A stretch of DNA of 64,000 nucleotides from Aureispira anguillae (GTDB taxonomy: Bacteria; Bacteroidota; Bacteroidia; Chitinophagales; Saprospiraceae), in contig NZ_AP026867.1 in the NCBI RefSeq assembly GCF_026000115.1, forward strand, positions 2,511,501 to 2,575,500, given 5' to 3'. Position 1 is the first letter of the stretch. Each line of letters begins with the position of its first letter. Positions 1 through 8,505 of this stretch are shown here, one piece after another. The position numbers and the translations under genes are program-made. A model generated the notes under the pieces. It was not told the DNA's origin and did no database searches. It saw only the letters and a list, made by a program, of their open reading frames with translations.

Positions 1-882
1 CTTTTTTCGTGCGAAAACCCCAAACCCTCTGCTCCTCAAAATCCGCTTCAAAAAGATGATTTTATTGAAAAAAAAGAATACAAGTCTGTAGATCCTCAAA
101 CCTTTCCACAAGGGCTTTGGATCGGAAAAAGCTACTATGATTCCCTTCAAAAAGGGAAATTAACGCCCCTATTTATCGAAAATCATTTAAAAACGTATGT
201 AAGTGAACATCAGGGGCATCTTGAAATCGGAAACGCTTATGGTTTTGAGTCGGGAATAGTTTCCATGACAGAAAAAAACTATCGTTTTGAACCGTCAAAT
301 CAAGAAAAAGAAAGGGATTATTTTTTTAACGTTAAAGAAGAAAATAATTCACTTTTACTTTCCACTAATTTCTATTGGGGGGTTAGATATATTGACGAAA
401 TGAATAAAGACACGCTTTATATAAAAGTTAGTGCTGATTCTGAAGATAACAGGCATGATGGCCATTATCATCTCGAATTTCCTATCGAGTCGCTCTATTT
501 TAGCGGAAAATATACTGTTTTAGATAAAAAAAACAACCAAAGCTATCCGAATGTAACAATCGAAAATCAGACTATTCAAAATTTTATAAAAGGAAAAAAC
601 TATCCTTTCCGCTACGAAGCACTGTTCCCAGGCTCGCATGTGATATACATAGCTCTTGAAGAAAAATTTGGAAGAGGATATTCACTAGAATATTCTAAAA
701 GAGCATATTATTTACCTTCTGAAAGGAAATATTTTGTTGTTGAGGATACCGAAAAAGGATTTCAACTCTTTGAATTATTACAACCATCTCTTAAAAACCC
801 TAAGGGTTGTGTAGAAGCTCATGACATAGAATCTGAAGCAGAAAAAGGAGAATTGTTATTTGACTTCACTAAAACCAATTAA
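1..882 (+). CDS. Putative lipoprotein, 5' end cut by window edge
   Basis: The reading frame is open from the first base, so the gene starts outside the window. The visible protein begins Leu-Phe-Ser-Cys, which looks like a lipobox with the acylated cysteine at the fourth visible residue, followed by a Pro/Gln-rich linker. This suggests an outer-membrane lipoprotein missing only most of its signal peptide. An internal ATG at 265 is in frame but is not the start, because good coding sequence continues upstream of it. The mature domain is mostly beta-strand-like with many aromatic residues (for example LWIGKSYYDS). I do not recognise a family. The layout (lipobox, linker, 'GLWIG' segment) loosely recalls the YARHG lipoprotein at 50152-51126 ('LGFWVGYF'), but no YARHG motif is present here. 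Confidence 0.75.
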   Translation, partial: LFSCENPKPSAPQNPLQKDDFIEKKEYKSVDPQTFPQGLWIGKSYYDSLQKGKLTPLFIENHLKTYVSEHQGHLEIGNAYGFESGIVSMTEKNYRFEPSNQEKERDYFFNVKEENNSLLLSTNFYWGVRYIDEMNKDTLYIKVSADSEDNRHDGHYHLEFPIESLYFSGKYTVLDKKNNQSYPNVTIENQTIQNFIKGKNYPFRYEALFPGSHVIYIALEEKFGRGYSLEYSKRAYYLPSERKYFVVEDTEKGFQLFELLQPSLKNPKGCVEAHDIESEAEKGELLFDFTKTN

Positions 883-1648: not shown

Positions 1649-3166
1649 CTAAAATTCCTGTTTTATTAATTTCCCAGTACTTTCTAACCCATCTAAACTT
1701 TCAACCTTGTAAAAATAAATGCCATTGGGCAGTGTTTTTTGTAATCTGATTTGATTGCTAATATTGTATATTTTTTGACGTTGAATCAATTGCCCATTTA
1801 CATTAAATAAGCTAAAAATATATTCTACATGATTCAATTCTTCAAAATCAACCGTGATATAATCAAAAAATGGATTGGGGGATATTTGAGCAGATAACGT
1901 TTCGATATTTGATACATTAACCGATGCACAGGGATTACTTAACATACTAATTGTATCAGAAATAATAATACATTTTCCTGGTCCAATAAGCGTATCCAAA
2001 TCCATGTAATCTATTTCACCATTCATTACAAAACCTTCACAATCATTCTGAAGAATTCCTCCAACTCGATCTCTATTTGGATAGTTATAAATAGTTTGAT
2101 TGATGATATTTCCCGTTGCATCCAAAATACATACACCAATATCAACGTTATCGGTTAAGGTATCATGAAAATTAGAGGCGAGGTAAAAACTACCATCTGC
2201 TCGCTCTAATAGTTGATGTGCATCTATCGTAGGGTATTCTTGGGACCACAAAAGGGTTCCTGCTGGGGTAAACTTATGCAATTGGGTAGAAAGCGAAAGG
2301 GGCTGAGTGTATGGATTATATTTACATAATAATATGTAATTGCTATCGCTGGTTTGATAGATTTCACGAGGAGTACTTGTAGCCGAATCAATCAATTTAA
2401 CCTCCCACTCTTCTACCAGAGCGCTATTGGATTTTGTAATAAATATATCTCCTTTTTGACCTAGGGAGCGGATCTCTCCAAAAAGAAAACCATTATCAGC
2501 GGTCTGTATAAGTCCTCCTTGTGTACAATTTGGATAAATGCCAAAATCAAATTGATTTTGTTGCACAATATTTTTGTTAGAATCTAATGTTATAAGCCCT
2601 GTATATGGCGTATAATTAGGGGGCCAAATCCACCCACCATTAGAAACTCTATCTCTCGTCAAATAAGTATATCGATTGGGTCCAGATTTAATAGCATTGA
2701 CGGTGTTGTGCAAATGATCCTGCTGTAGAATTGCGGCATCTGCTGGATTGCTTACCATATTCCCTAAACTATCAATTCGCAAAAGCATTGGATCAGAACT
2801 AGGGGTCTGAAGGCTGCCATTAAATCCTCGTCCTACAATGGTATATTCTCCTGTTAGTGTATCTTCATAGACATTCATATGATGCCCCCCATCATTAATA
2901 TAATGTTGTTGAGACCACAAAAGCTGCCCTGCTGGAGTCGTTTTATTGACATAGAGGTGTGTAGCTGTGCCATGAAAAAAAATAAGATAAGGGGAATAGA
3001 TTCGACGGTCTCCTACCGTTAAATAATTTCCGTCATGGCATTTAAAAATAAGGTTGCCTCCTATATTATGAGCTGTATCTGTATTAATATTGGTAAAAAT
3101 AGGTTGCCCCAATACATGACCATTTATTAGGCAAAAGGCAATGCCAAGTAGTAGTAGTGTTTTCAT
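1649..3166 (-). CDS. Secreted protein with T9SS type A C-terminal sorting domain
   Basis: A 505-residue protein with a classic signal peptide (MKTLLLLGIAFCLINGHVLGQ). Its central region is made of repeating beta segments of the type 'xxDGxYlvxG', as in large Bacteroidota surface proteins with propeller-like repeats (for example 'QTADNGFLFGE', 'TSDSNYILLCK', 'RADGSFYLAS'). The last 75 residues form a type IX secretion sorting domain: 'ISPNPFFDYITVDF', then 'LFNVNGQLIQ', then 'LPNGIYFYKVES' and 'GKLIKQEF'. It should cross the inner membrane by Sec and the outer membrane by T9SS, then be anchored or released at the surface. The protein at 6643-8505 has the same architecture. The ligand or enzymatic role is unknown. 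Confidence 0.9.
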   Translation of the reverse strand: MKTLLLLGIAFCLINGHVLGQPIFTNINTDTAHNIGGNLIFKCHDGNYLTVGDRRIYSPYLIFFHGTATHLYVNKTTPAGQLLWSQQHYINDGGHHMNVYEDTLTGEYTIVGRGFNGSLQTPSSDPMLLRIDSLGNMVSNPADAAILQQDHLHNTVNAIKSGPNRYTYLTRDRVSNGGWIWPPNYTPYTGLITLDSNKNIVQQNQFDFGIYPNCTQGGLIQTADNGFLFGEIRSLGQKGDIFITKSNSALVEEWEVKLIDSATSTPREIYQTSDSNYILLCKYNPYTQPLSLSTQLHKFTPAGTLLWSQEYPTIDAHQLLERADGSFYLASNFHDTLTDNVDIGVCILDATGNIINQTIYNYPNRDRVGGILQNDCEGFVMNGEIDYMDLDTLIGPGKCIIISDTISMLSNPCASVNVSNIETLSAQISPNPFFDYITVDFEELNHVEYIFSLFNVNGQLIQRQKIYNISNQIRLQKTLPNGIYFYKVESLDGLESTGKLIKQEF

Positions 3167-3253: not shown

Positions 3254-5764
3254 CTACTTCTTTATAAATTTCTTTGAGGTATATGTATTGTGATGCGCGG
3301 CGAATGCCGTTAGGACGTAAACACCTCGGGGTAAATCTTCTATAGGAATTTGTAGGGTTGAGTTGGTTGAAATATTGAGATTTTTTTCTAAGATTTTCCT
3401 TCCTAGCAAATCCAAAACAAGCACCTTTGTAGGATTGCAATCCACCCATTCTATGTTGATCCGATTGTCAATAGGATTAGGGAAAATTTTAAAATCGAGT
3501 GTTTCTAAATCAATGATTCTCGAATCTTCATCCGCAAGATAAGCGACCCATGGACGAGCTTGCTTAATGACAAGTTGATTATCAGCCGTTATTTTATATT
3601 CAATTTCCATGGCAAAAGTAGGATTGCCAACCGCATTATAAAGCACTTCAAACTTGTTATGAATAACCGTAAGATAAGCCCTGATTTGATCCAAATGCTT
3701 TCTTTCCAGAATAAGCCCTTTATTGGGTACTAGACTCGAATGCTGCAAAACAATATAATCTGTTGCACTGGTTGCTACAATGTCTAGCAATAATTCTTCA
3801 GGAACAGCCGTATTATTAGGATTGGTGATTAGATCTTCTCCAACCTGAGAATTTAAATAATAAAATGCATCATTGGTCTGGTACATTGGGTCGGTGCTAA
3901 CCCCTACACCATTGGCTTTTTCATCCGAATAATTGGAATGGCATAAGACTCCCATTGAGGCGGTAAGATGATTGACTCGATAAAATTCCCGTTCATCAAA
4001 AGCTCTTAAATTCCACAAACTAGCATAGATCTGCTGGATGGATTTAGCAATATGCCCCTCGTTGGGATGCTGTGTATTGGAGGCATATAACCCTGCCCCA
4101 TTAAATCCTGGCAAATCCTCATTGTTTGTACTCGATCGACATCGTATGGAAGTATTTTCAGGAAAAGAAGCCTGCATTTCAGCCAATTGATCCAACATCC
4201 AGTAGGGCATTTCTCCTTTTTCTATTTTCTTTCTAAAAGCAGCTAACATCGCATCCCTCAAATTTCGGTCTGTCCTAAAATCTGGATTCTTAAGCATCTC
4301 CCTCGCCACTTCAAAAAAGTGATTGTGCTTCATAAATTCTTGGTAAAAATAAAAGGGAACGCCAAAACCATCTGGAATTGTTTCCGCTGGAAAACCAAAG
4401 GTTCTCATTGTTGCGACATTAGCACATTTTGCGCCAAACCCATCAAACATCGAAAACGTTATTTCATCCAATGGCAAAATAGAGGTATAATCCAAATTTA
4501 AGGGAGAAGTTTGATTTTGATCGGGTCTAGCTTTTTCAAACCAGTTGTTTACTTCTTCTAGGCTTGCTTCTCGAATGAAAAATTGGTCTTGTTCTACTTT
4601 AAAATAAATATAATGCCCAAGTAAGTTGGCAACAGAGTCAATTAATAGAGGGTCTCTGATAAACGCATTGGGAACTCCATCTTGTATTGCTCTTAGATTC
4701 ACATGTGACAATGGCGTTTGAATGACAGAGGTTATAATACCACCAACACGAGGGAGCGTATTGGGCAATGACGAATACAATACAATGTCTTTTATCCCTG
4801 GTATGTCTCCTGCTGCCATCTCCCGAAAAAGACCAAATCCTTCTGCCTCATTTAGCCCCCAATAATCAACTTGGGCATACACCTCTGCTTCAAAAAGTAC
4901 GGGCACCCTAGAGTTGGTATATTGTCCCGAATCCTGCTCGTATTGAATTTGACTATTTGTCGTTACAAAATAGGATAAGTTATTCGTTAAGAATGGCATA
5001 TTTGCAGCCAATAATTCATGTGTTTTTTGGACAACCTCAAAATCATCCCCATGACCATTACTATAATTAAAAGCAAATGTTCCGAGTGTTCCATTGTTCG
5101 ATATGGTCGTTGGATGATAAATAATTTGCCCCTTTTTTACATCATTCCCAATCGTACTAATACCGATCGCATTGGCAAAATCTGCGTGGAGATTGTGCGT
5201 ATTTCCATTTATAAAATAAACCTTGGGTGCTGTATTAAAATCCACAATTATAAATTTGGCAAATCGCTTGCCATTTAAAAATTCAGACCACTGCACCAAA
5301 TCTCTTGAAATCGACAATTGATTAAACAGCGTAAAACTATCAATTGCAATTGCTCCATCATTAATGCTGATCGGATTGGCGGGGTTGATCGGATTTTGAG
5401 TAGGAAAATTTTGATATTCTGTGATGTCATCCACCCCATCCCTATCTGTATCATGAGCTGCACCAACCGCATATTCCAACACTTGATAATAAGCCTGAGG
5501 ATAAGCAGCCAGCGATTCTGTAATTTGTGTGGTTCCTGCTTGTCCCATTGTGATGGAAGCCGTTAAATCGAATCCACCACTGAGATCGTGTCGAACTTTT
5601 AACACATAGTATTTCCCGATTGAGGAAGCCACCGTTAACTGAACTCGACCTTCTGTATCTGTATTATACCCTATAATTGGAACTTGTTGTCCATAAATAA
5701 GACCTTGACTAGATAAGATAATTAATAAACTAAAAAGGAGATTCAAGAAAGTAGTTCTGCTCAT
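3254..5764 (-). CDS. T9SS-exported PEP/pyruvate dikinase-like protein (phosphohistidine plus ATP-grasp domains)
   Basis: I chose the ATG at 5764 (836 residues) over the GTG at 5782 because it puts a normal signal peptide (MSRTTFLNLLFSLLIIL) at the N-terminus. A calcium-binding-type motif 'DTDRDGVDD' lies near residue 105. A phosphohistidine swivelling-domain motif follows, 'TPLSHVNLRA' at about 350-359 with His354 as the likely phosphorylated residue and 'DGVPNAF' after it. Next comes a PPDK/PEP-synthase ATP-grasp domain from about 435 to 740: 'CRSSTNNEDLPGFNGAG' near 542 and the closing 'QARPW' at about 735. The C-terminal 75 residues are a T9SS type A sorting domain ('IFPNPIDNRINIEW', 'LDLLGRKILEKN', 'LPRGVYVL'). 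The His domain precedes the ATP-grasp domain, the order of glucan water dikinases rather than of PEP synthase. An exported ATP-using enzyme is odd; the substrate is unknown. Confidence 0.85.
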   Translation of the reverse strand: MSRTTFLNLLFSLLIILSSQGLIYGQQVPIIGYNTDTEGRVQLTVASSIGKYYVLKVRHDLSGGFDLTASITMGQAGTTQITESLAAYPQAYYQVLEYAVGAAHDTDRDGVDDITEYQNFPTQNPINPANPISINDGAIAIDSFTLFNQLSISRDLVQWSEFLNGKRFAKFIIVDFNTAPKVYFINGNTHNLHADFANAIGISTIGNDVKKGQIIYHPTTISNNGTLGTFAFNYSNGHGDDFEVVQKTHELLAANMPFLTNNLSYFVTTNSQIQYEQDSGQYTNSRVPVLFEAEVYAQVDYWGLNEAEGFGLFREMAAGDIPGIKDIVLYSSLPNTLPRVGGIITSVIQTPLSHVNLRAIQDGVPNAFIRDPLLIDSVANLLGHYIYFKVEQDQFFIREASLEEVNNWFEKARPDQNQTSPLNLDYTSILPLDEITFSMFDGFGAKCANVATMRTFGFPAETIPDGFGVPFYFYQEFMKHNHFFEVAREMLKNPDFRTDRNLRDAMLAAFRKKIEKGEMPYWMLDQLAEMQASFPENTSIRCRSSTNNEDLPGFNGAGLYASNTQHPNEGHIAKSIQQIYASLWNLRAFDEREFYRVNHLTASMGVLCHSNYSDEKANGVGVSTDPMYQTNDAFYYLNSQVGEDLITNPNNTAVPEELLLDIVATSATDYIVLQHSSLVPNKGLILERKHLDQIRAYLTVIHNKFEVLYNAVGNPTFAMEIEYKITADNQLVIKQARPWVAYLADEDSRIIDLETLDFKIFPNPIDNRINIEWVDCNPTKVLVLDLLGRKILEKNLNISTNSTLQIPIEDLPRGVYVLTAFAAHHNTYTSKKFIKK

Positions 5765-6020: not shown

Positions 6021-6572
6021 TTACTGCTTCCTTTTGTACATAATATCTGTTCGAAGAACATACTTTATTCCCTTATGAATCGGTTTTCCAGCATGTCTTA
6101 CTTCATGTTTAAAAATAAGTGCCGTCCCCGTTTTAGGCTCAACATAAAATTGGGGAAACTCAGTAGCACCGCCTTCCATTTCTTCATTTAGGTAAATTAG
6201 TAAGGTATAAGAACTCCATTCTTTTATGGAGCGGATATAGCTTCCATCTATATGGCTTCTAAATTGTTGCCCAGGTTTATATTTATAAAATCGAAACCGT
6301 TCATTTAATCCACAGGCAATTCCATATTCCGTTTCCAAGATGACAAATGGTCTGATTTTGTCCCACAGTTCAGATGCTAATTCTTCATTATCATAAATAA
6401 ATCGTTCATTATTTCGAATTGCTTTATTAACGACTTGTTTTCCAAAGCCCATATTAACCTTTGCTAATTCATAGCCTTGCTTTTCGCTAAATTCAATCCA
6501 TTTTTGACAGTCTGCTTTGGACATGAAATTTTTAATACAAAAAATATCTTCATCCAATCTGATCGCTTCCAT
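6021..6572 (-). CDS. 2-oxoglutarate/Fe(II) oxygenase, prolyl 4-hydroxylase-like
   Basis: A 183-residue single-domain protein of the P4Hc type. The Fe(II) ligands are visible as His107-x-Asp109 ('SHIDGSY') and distal His160 ('HEVRHAGKP'). The 2-oxoglutarate-binding basic residue is probably Arg174 in 'KYVLRTDIMY'. Segments 'YKYKPGQQFRSH', 'LLIYLNEEMEGGATEF' and 'PKTGTALIF' match the family's core strands. There is no signal peptide, so it should act in the cytosol, hydroxylating proline or another residue on a protein or a small molecule using O2 and 2-oxoglutarate. It is a lone gene between two T9SS cargo genes on the same strand; a functional link to them is not shown. Confidence 0.85.
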   Translation of the reverse strand: MEAIRLDEDIFCIKNFMSKADCQKWIEFSEKQGYELAKVNMGFGKQVVNKAIRNNERFIYDNEELASELWDKIRPFVILETEYGIACGLNERFRFYKYKPGQQFRSHIDGSYIRSIKEWSSYTLLIYLNEEMEGGATEFPQFYVEPKTGTALIFKHEVRHAGKPIHKGIKYVLRTDIMYKRKQ

Positions 6573-6642: not shown

Positions 6643-8505
6643 TCAATGGGCAACAACCACTCGTTTTTGAGCAATCATTTTTTTATTTTGATATAAAACC
6701 AATTGGTAGATTCCTGAAGGAAGATGAGAAACTTGAATTTGAGTTGAGAATGGCTTTTCTAAGATTGATTGCCCTAAACTATTGTAAAGAATTATTTTAT
6801 CTGGTGCAATAAAAGGAGCAACAACGTTAATTTTAAATAGATTGTCCGTTGGGTTAGGTAAAATAGATACAGCATTTTCTTTGGTATTATATTGGGCGAT
6901 ATTGGATACTGTCAGATTAAAACAAGAACTGGTATCTGTACATATACTGTCTGTAACAATTACCGCATAAGTTCCATTCGAAACTGGTGTAAAAGATGAA
7001 CTTGTAGCTCCTTGAACAATTTGGTTAGTTTGACAGTTCATCCATTGGAAACTCGCTAAATTAGCATTTGCCATAAGAGTATTACCCGATTGACTAACAG
7101 CCGTATCAACGGTATGAGCACTTATATTAAAAAACGCTGAGGTGTCAGCTCCAAACCGATTACTTACCACAATTTGATAAGCGCCTAAACCTCCGATCGT
7201 AACGGGCGAAGAATTTTGGGTAGCAACCAAATTTCCATTTTGATACACTTTAAATGTATCGGAAGTAGAAAATTGCGAGTAAAAATAGACAGAACTACCT
7301 GTTGCATCTACATAATAATTGTTTCCTGTTGTTACGGGTACAGCTGCTGCTGAAGTACCACAAGCAATAGCATCATCAGGGGTAGCGGATAAGATATGGT
7401 TTCTATTGGAATCTAATTTTACTAAATAATTATTACTAGCAATGATATAGTTTCCATCTTGTAATTCGTAAGCAATCCCTAGCGCTTTGTCGTTATAAAA
7501 CGATCCATTTCCTGATTTTATATTGATGTTTTTTTTCCATAGCATAGTGCCCGTGCTACTATATTTTATGATCGTTGATTTTTTCTTAGGCTCATTAAGA
7601 TCTTGTCCCATGACTAAATAACCTCCATCTGAGCAAAGCGTAGCACGATGAGCTACACTAGGTGCTGTCGCTACTACAGGTATTGTTTTAGACCAAAGAG
7701 GGCTTCCTGTAGGACTGAGTTTTAGAATTTTCCAACCATAATTGGTATTCGGAGGACTGTATTTTTTTCCTCCAACGATTATATAATTGCCCGCATTATC
7801 TTGAAGAACAGATGCTGCCAAATCAAGGTCAAGGGCTGCAGGAAATCCAAATTGATGCGTAATACTCCCATCTAGTGCACTAATACGATAAAGAGAATCA
7901 GTTTTTAAAACCATATAGCCCCCATTCATATCTTCCTGAGCATCTATAATATTATAAGGGTAATTTTTAGTCCACAAAGGAGTGCCAGTGCTATCATAGT
8001 TAATCAAATACGTAATATTAGAGACCAAATATCCTCCAGATACTTCATGAATATCTCTTATTTTTGAGTAACCAGAATGCGGCATTGAGCGTGTCCAAGT
8101 TGTATCTCCAACAGAATTTGTTTTAACAACGAGGTCAACTTCTGGACTGAGGTATAAATCCTCTCCAGCAGCCAATATATACCCTCCATCACTAGTCTGT
8201 TCAAGTGTTATATGAGTACCAAAAGAACCTGATACATCTATAGTCTTATAAAAAACTAAGTTTCCTGATGGGGTATATTCCATCATTACTATTTCCCCTC
8301 CTGTTAAACTATTTCCACTACTAAAAACAAAGCTAGGATAACCAGCTACAACATAATTGCCATTAGGCTTGATGATCATATCTCCAGAAACAATTGGCAA
8401 TAGAGAAGTACCAGGTATCCTTAGTAGAGGTTTTATCCACTGAGATACACCAAGGTTAATTCCCAACATAATGAGCATAACAGTCAAAGAACATTTCATG
8501 AGCAT
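6643..8505 (-). CDS. Secreted T9SS type A protein with repeat region and Ig-like segment
   Basis: About 620 residues with a signal peptide starting at Met1 or Met3 (ATG at 8505 or 8499; the second gives the tidier MKCSLTVMLIMLG). The N-terminal 370 residues contain repeated 'DGGYIlaaG' strands, resembling the protein at 1649-3166. Residues of about 380-540 look like Ig-like or PKD-like beta modules, with 'FQWMNCQTNQIVQGATSSS', a common pattern in gliding-bacterium surface proteins. The C-terminal sorting domain is clear: 'SILPNPTDNLFKINV', 'LYNSLGQSILEK', 'LPSGIYQLVLYQNK'. It is predicted to be exported by T9SS. An inverted-repeat element sits directly upstream (8533-8721), so its promoter must lie within or beyond that element. 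Confidence 0.9.
   Translation of the reverse strand: MLMKCSLTVMLIMLGINLGVSQWIKPLLRIPGTSLLPIVSGDMIIKPNGNYVVAGYPSFVFSSGNSLTGGEIVMMEYTPSGNLVFYKTIDVSGSFGTHITLEQTSDGGYILAAGEDLYLSPEVDLVVKTNSVGDTTWTRSMPHSGYSKIRDIHEVSGGYLVSNITYLINYDSTGTPLWTKNYPYNIIDAQEDMNGGYMVLKTDSLYRISALDGSITHQFGFPAALDLDLAASVLQDNAGNYIIVGGKKYSPPNTNYGWKILKLSPTGSPLWSKTIPVVATAPSVAHRATLCSDGGYLVMGQDLNEPKKKSTIIKYSSTGTMLWKKNINIKSGNGSFYNDKALGIAYELQDGNYIIASNNYLVKLDSNRNHILSATPDDAIACGTSAAAVPVTTGNNYYVDATGSSVYFYSQFSTSDTFKVYQNGNLVATQNSSPVTIGGLGAYQIVVSNRFGADTSAFFNISAHTVDTAVSQSGNTLMANANLASFQWMNCQTNQIVQGATSSSFTPVSNGTYAVIVTDSICTDTSSCFNLTVSNIAQYNTKENAVSILPNPTDNLFKINVVAPFIAPDKIILYNSLGQSILEKPFSTQIQVSHLPSGIYQLVLYQNKKMIAQKRVVVAH

Follow-up and report, generated by a model that had tools for sequence, protein, structure and literature searches.

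The gene at positions 3254 to 5764 of the window, a 64,000-nucleotide stretch of Aureispira anguillae DNA (contig NZ_AP026867.1), quite probably encodes an ATP-dependent phosphohistidine phosphotransferase of the PPDK_N superfamily, exported by the T9SS to the surface or released, and built in the domain order of glucan water dikinase (GWD). This reading draws on predicted folds, intact ATP-site residues, the invariance of one histidine, export signals and the T9SS of the genome, all computed here. PPDK, PEP synthase and glucan water dikinase each combine an ATP-grasp domain with a swivelling histidine domain. The place and length of the reading frame and all motifs quoted in the preliminary description are found at the residue numbers given there: in the 836-residue frame, His354 lies within QTPLSHVNLRA, CRSSTNNEDLPGF at 542-554 and QARPW at 735-739. 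The features are the following.

3254..5764, minus strand: whole gene, 836 residues plus stop, with the ATG at 5764 and the stop at 3254
5687..5764, minus strand: predicted signal peptide, residues ~1-26 (MSRTTFLNLLFSLLIILSSQGLIYGQ), from the hydrophobic N-terminus; helix 2-24 in the model
5465..5683, minus strand: N-terminal beta-sandwich-like domain, residues 28-100, from model secondary structure and alignment occupancy
5390..5464, minus strand: DTDRDGVDDITE calcium-binding-type loop, residues 101-125, from the sequence
4910..5347, minus strand: alpha/beta domain, residues ~140-285, with invariant K170 and H193, a candidate acceptor domain, from the family alignment
4529..4870, minus strand: predicted swivelling phosphohistidine domain, residues ~299-412, from the domain model and structural alignment
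4703..4705, minus strand: codon of His354, the predicted phosphate-carrying histidine, invariant in 50 sequences
3539..4489, minus strand: ATP-grasp (PPDK_N), residues ~426-742, with K446, R543, S562, E722, Q735 and R737, from Pfam, model and alignment
3263..3487, minus strand: T9SS type A C-terminal sorting domain, residues 760-834, from Pfam, NCBIfam and fold match

The two C-terminal parts are recognised directly by family models. PPDK_N is matched in Pfam at 8e-21 (75.1 bits against a cut-off of 27, residues 443-741), and the tail by Por_Secre_tail in Pfam (1.7e-10, residues 760-834) and by the T9SS type A domain TIGR04183 in NCBIfam (1.4e-8), with scores above the curated cut-offs (41.5 bits of 27 and 34.6 of 23 needed, TIGR04183/PF18962). 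Searched as a single sequence, the window protein gives no Pfam match for its His domain, and none for a PEP/pyruvate-binding TIM barrel; its order is His domain, ATP-grasp, T9SS tail. Further NCBIfam matches, to PEP synthases, rifampin phosphotransferase (RPH) and PigC, are weak and partial, all far under their own cut-offs. According to alignment occupancy, the N-terminal beta domain (28-100) is accessory and absent from distant relatives; a Verrucomicrobia relative carries EF-hands at the N-terminus in place of the calcium-binding-type loop.

AlphaFold2, run with the 50-row family alignment, gives a model of mean pLDDT 88. Its ATP-grasp superposes on RPH with AMPPNP (Z 28.4, 2.4 Å, 288 residues), the top structural match, and on PEP synthase (Z 28.3; PEP synthases and PPDK span Z 13-28). 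Its tail fits T9SS sorting domains of known structure at Z 9-10 (9.9 for the RemA CTD, 8gl6). Because the whole-model search scarcely probed the parts other than ATP-grasp and tail, a separate model was made of residues 130-424 (pLDDT 90). With VIA-align the His domain then matches RPH (5hv2, Z 11.0), Enzyme I (2wqd, Z 9.6) and the PPDK phosphoryl carrier domain (Z 8.6-8.8; 2fm4, 8.6) over 92-116 residues; these values of 8-11 are modestly above those of unrelated rows, which lie mostly at Z 5-7, a few other beta/beta/alpha swivelling folds reaching 8-10. Profile alignment against 12 Bacteroidota PEP synthases (hhalign) places His354 on the catalytic histidine and GIITSVIQTPLSHVNLRA on AIITNKGGRTCHAAIVARE, with a poor score. 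For residues 140-285 no match is present among those listed for the domain-pair model, the list being filled by the His domain. A cystatin-like fold for this region (4lzi) was rejected as too weak, its value of 6e-4 being summed over repeats with each copy at 16-35. The models support the presence of both a swivelling phosphohistidine domain and a PPDK_N ATP-grasp, in the order that had been proposed, and the swivelling domain, first read by eye, is upheld by structure prediction.

In RPH the ATP phosphates are held in place by Lys22, Arg117 and Thr136, and resistance is lost when these are mutated; Glu297, which seems to be a Mg ligand, is dispensable (PMC4844700). By alignment position (425..741 on 1..315), K446, R543, S562 and E722 fall on these four residues, the serine keeping the hydroxyl of Thr136. 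All four, together with K170, H193, H354, S545, K734, Q735 and R737, are invariant in 50/50 aligned sequences, drawn from Bacteroidota, Verrucomicrobiota, Planctomycetota, Poribacteria and Chloroflexota, some of them from a distant group of 23-27% identity. Since the catalytic residues do not vary across this set, the pattern is not one of chance, and with their retention even in the distant group, general decay is unlikely. The protein is probably active. The preliminary description had staked its reading on the His domain, an unbroken ATP-grasp site and the ATP-binding residues; all three were examined and all are present, and the equivalents of the ATP-contacting residues bear out the claim of an intact ATP-grasp.

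The N-terminus of the window protein reaches KD 2.75 over 11 residues, whereas none of 12 cytosolic PEP synthases exceeds 1.82, in agreement with the signal peptide originally described, a call made here on hydrophobicity only. At the same threshold, 51/58 relatives show an export-type N-terminus and 0/12 PEP synthases do; among the remaining seven relatives, four are signal-peptide-like by eye and three have doubtful start calls. SprA is present in the same genome (2e-168), which therefore has a T9SS. With signal peptide, sorting tail and a T9SS-bearing genome, the protein has every mark of a predicted T9SS type A cargo. The tail is restricted to Bacteroidota members, and relatives from other phyla lack it; as far as these signals tell, Bacteroidota members most likely leave the cell via the T9SS and those of other phyla by another route.

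The closest relatives occur in Aureispira (~70% identity), and those at 38-70% identity in Saprospiraceae, Lewinellaceae, Flavobacteriales and other Bacteroidota as well as in Verrucomicrobiota, Planctomycetota, Poribacteria and Chloroflexota. Exported relatives span at least five bacterial phyla, and the family is previously unstudied: an open-literature search returned nothing relevant on secreted dikinases or dikinase-like T9SS cargo. The family is only moderately frequent: single-sequence search at 1e-15 finds positives in 9/395 genomes of the phylum, and a search at 1e-60 in 9/199 genomes of the phylum of a planctomycete member. The minimal form, of ~625 residues, consists of a signal peptide, a K/H domain of the 140-285 type, the His domain and the ATP-grasp; it recurs in one same-class genus, with one copy in the A. 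anguillae genome. In a tree of the ATP-grasp computed from bacterial sequences, the exported family stands apart from PEP synthases with 100/100 support. Its phyla are interleaved, so horizontal transfer within the family appears likely. Further relatives in planctomycete-phylum genomes are fusions with domains typical of secreted proteins, namely FG-GAP repeats, a P-domain or a lamin-tail domain. Two of these (L076 and L079; 1600-1730 residues, secreted-looking) place many FG-GAP repeats ahead of the His domain and ATP-grasp; another (L080) has a lamin-tail domain between the two, a PEP-utilizers match of 0.0038 and a very long branch. Flavobacteriales versions (L032, L033, L058) reach ~1300 residues, and L058 carries CARDB and a SprB repeat between ATP-grasp and T9SS tail.

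A PF01326 search of the 7.8 Mb A. anguillae genome finds three PPDK_N proteins, all with export-type N-termini, and no ordinary PEP synthase or PPDK. One paralogue (L002, G000:C1:1513061-1514131) has 677 residues, ~27% identity, intact catalytic residues and no T9SS tail. The other (L003, G000:C1:2208498-2209016), of 341 residues, is an ATP-grasp only; its RSS and QARP motifs are lost, and by its sequence it appears to be dead or repurposed.

Each of the known systems shares part of this architecture. The protein resembles PEP synthase and PPDK in its ATP-grasp fold and, at Z 8-9, in the PPDK His-domain fold, but differs in its reversed order and exported-type N-terminus; identity with these enzymes was rejected, because the barrel is missing, the order is wrong, the score is 53.5 of 739.75 bits (equivalog cut-off) and the tree separates the branches. 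RPH is alike in both folds and, by position, in the ATP-contacting residues, whereas its histidine lies at the C-terminus, after the drug-binding domain, and the window protein scores 38 of 999 needed in NCBIfam. As a T9SS type A cargo the protein is typical in signal peptide and sorting domain, and differs in carrying a dikinase-like catalytic pair. The likeness to GWD and PWD lies in a His domain followed by a C-terminal PPDK_N ATP-grasp; in GWD and PWD, too, PPDK_N is C-terminal (PMC11986951). In contrast to them, the window protein is bacterial, of exported type and T9SS-tailed. The family GWD1_pHisD matches 19/50 aligned sequences weakly (best 9e-4, a value also given by L082) and is the only His-domain family among the 25 commonest Pfam families of the alignment; wherever a score is shown it lies under the Pfam cut-off, the best relative shown reaching 19.2 of 27 bits. 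The window protein itself does not match it at E 10, and a search of the whole genome finds none, the controls giving none either. A Pfam search at E 10 finds neither CBM45 nor CBM20 in the window protein, and neither is one of the 25 families most often matched in the 50 sequences. The protein is GWD-like in order and fails two GWD tests, the GWD1_pHisD cut-off and the starch-binding modules CBM45/CBM20.

All-against-all comparison of flanking frames at ~50 loci yields no neighbour common to more than a few, and a Pfam scan of the 70 nearest neighbours shows housekeeping and mixed genes, with no polysaccharide-degradation genes and, among the commonest, none for phosphate uptake; no biosynthetic cluster surrounds the gene or its relatives. 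Genomic context was therefore given up as a guide to the substrate. In the window, the gene is flanked by T9SS type A proteins without other Pfam domains (1649-3166 and 6643-8505, minus strand), and the next gene upstream (6021-6572, minus strand) is a 2OG-Fe(II) oxygenase (PF13640), possibly prolyl-hydroxylase-like.

Catalysis, the swivelling relay and an extracellular site of reaction are what we infer from this architecture. Mg-ATP would be bound by the C-terminal ATP-grasp, the beta-phosphate would pass to His354 on the swivelling domain (ATP to AMP and Pi), and the His domain would then swing and pass the phosphate on to an acceptor bound by a further part of the protein. That part would most plausibly be the 140-285 domain with Lys170 and His193, the best candidate since it alone, besides the catalytic pair, is retained across the close family and the 625-residue group. 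The reaction would have to draw on ATP from outside the cell, such as that of lysing cells. The scarcity of extracellular ATP counts against the explanation; lysing cells do release it, and Aureispira relatives are reported predators. Since most members of the family are not known to be predators, lysis as the source is only a suggestion. The earlier idea of a surface or extracellular dikinase, perhaps acting on polysaccharide, is supported in its first part, through the catalytic pair with export signals, and not in its second: no starch-binding module is matched, the flanks of the relatives show no conserved polysaccharide locus, and the GWD1_pHisD matches lie under the cut-off. Polysaccharide as acceptor is possible, if unsupported.

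A more specific version, in which the protein is a bacterial counterpart of GWD and PWD, loosening extracellular or algal glucans, or else the exopolysaccharide of its own cell, by phosphorylating them, is tentative and rather unlikely. The domain order and the weak GWD1_pHisD matches among relatives favour it, as do LSHV..RA, NEDL.GF.GAGLY.S and NGEDLEGYAGAGLY, which we take to be plant GWD motifs much like those of the window protein; the two failed GWD tests and the neighbourhood argue against it. Less likely still is an extracellular ATP-consuming or nucleotide-scavenging enzyme with water as acceptor, turning ATP into AMP and two phosphates for phosphate or nucleoside acquisition. Water dikinases already pass the gamma phosphate to water (PMC7569903), and export with no conserved partners fits a stand-alone enzyme. 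Yet hydrolysis needs no two-step histidine relay, the domain with invariant K170 and H193 would be left without explanation, and the commonest neighbours hold no phosphate-uptake genes.

That the protein is a dead enzyme retained for surface binding or adhesion is improbable. The fusion of L058 to CARDB and SprB repeats favours this reading, and the RSS motif has been lost in the exported paralogue at G000:C1:2208498, so decay does happen in this group, but the catalytic residues are all invariant in 50 sequences from five phyla. The least probable reading considered is that of a non-transferring ATP-dependent ligase or condensing enzyme, such as the PPDK_N-bearing prodigiosin ligase PigC/RedH. 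The NCBIfam matches to PigC (3.4e-9) and RedH (3.3e-4), both far under their cut-offs, are confined to the ATP-grasp, over which PEP synthase models score better, and a biosynthetic cluster is lacking.

An active, exported phosphohistidine phosphotransferase remains the preferred reading. The characterised enzymes with this catalytic pair that were considered, PEP synthase, PPDK, RPH, GWD and PWD, work within cells or plastids. An exported family with a fully conserved catalytic pair in at least five phyla would, if this is true, place ATP-driven phosphate chemistry on the surfaces of free-living bacteria and raise the question of where the ATP originates. Broader still, and speculative, is the view that exported dikinases are widespread in bacteria, use ATP and a histidine relay to phosphorylate a macromolecule outside the cell, and share ancestry with the plant starch dikinases. 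Plant members with the order His domain, then ATP-grasp have no solved structure (PMC12892837), and the family offers smaller bacterial proteins in which the GWD domain order may be studied.
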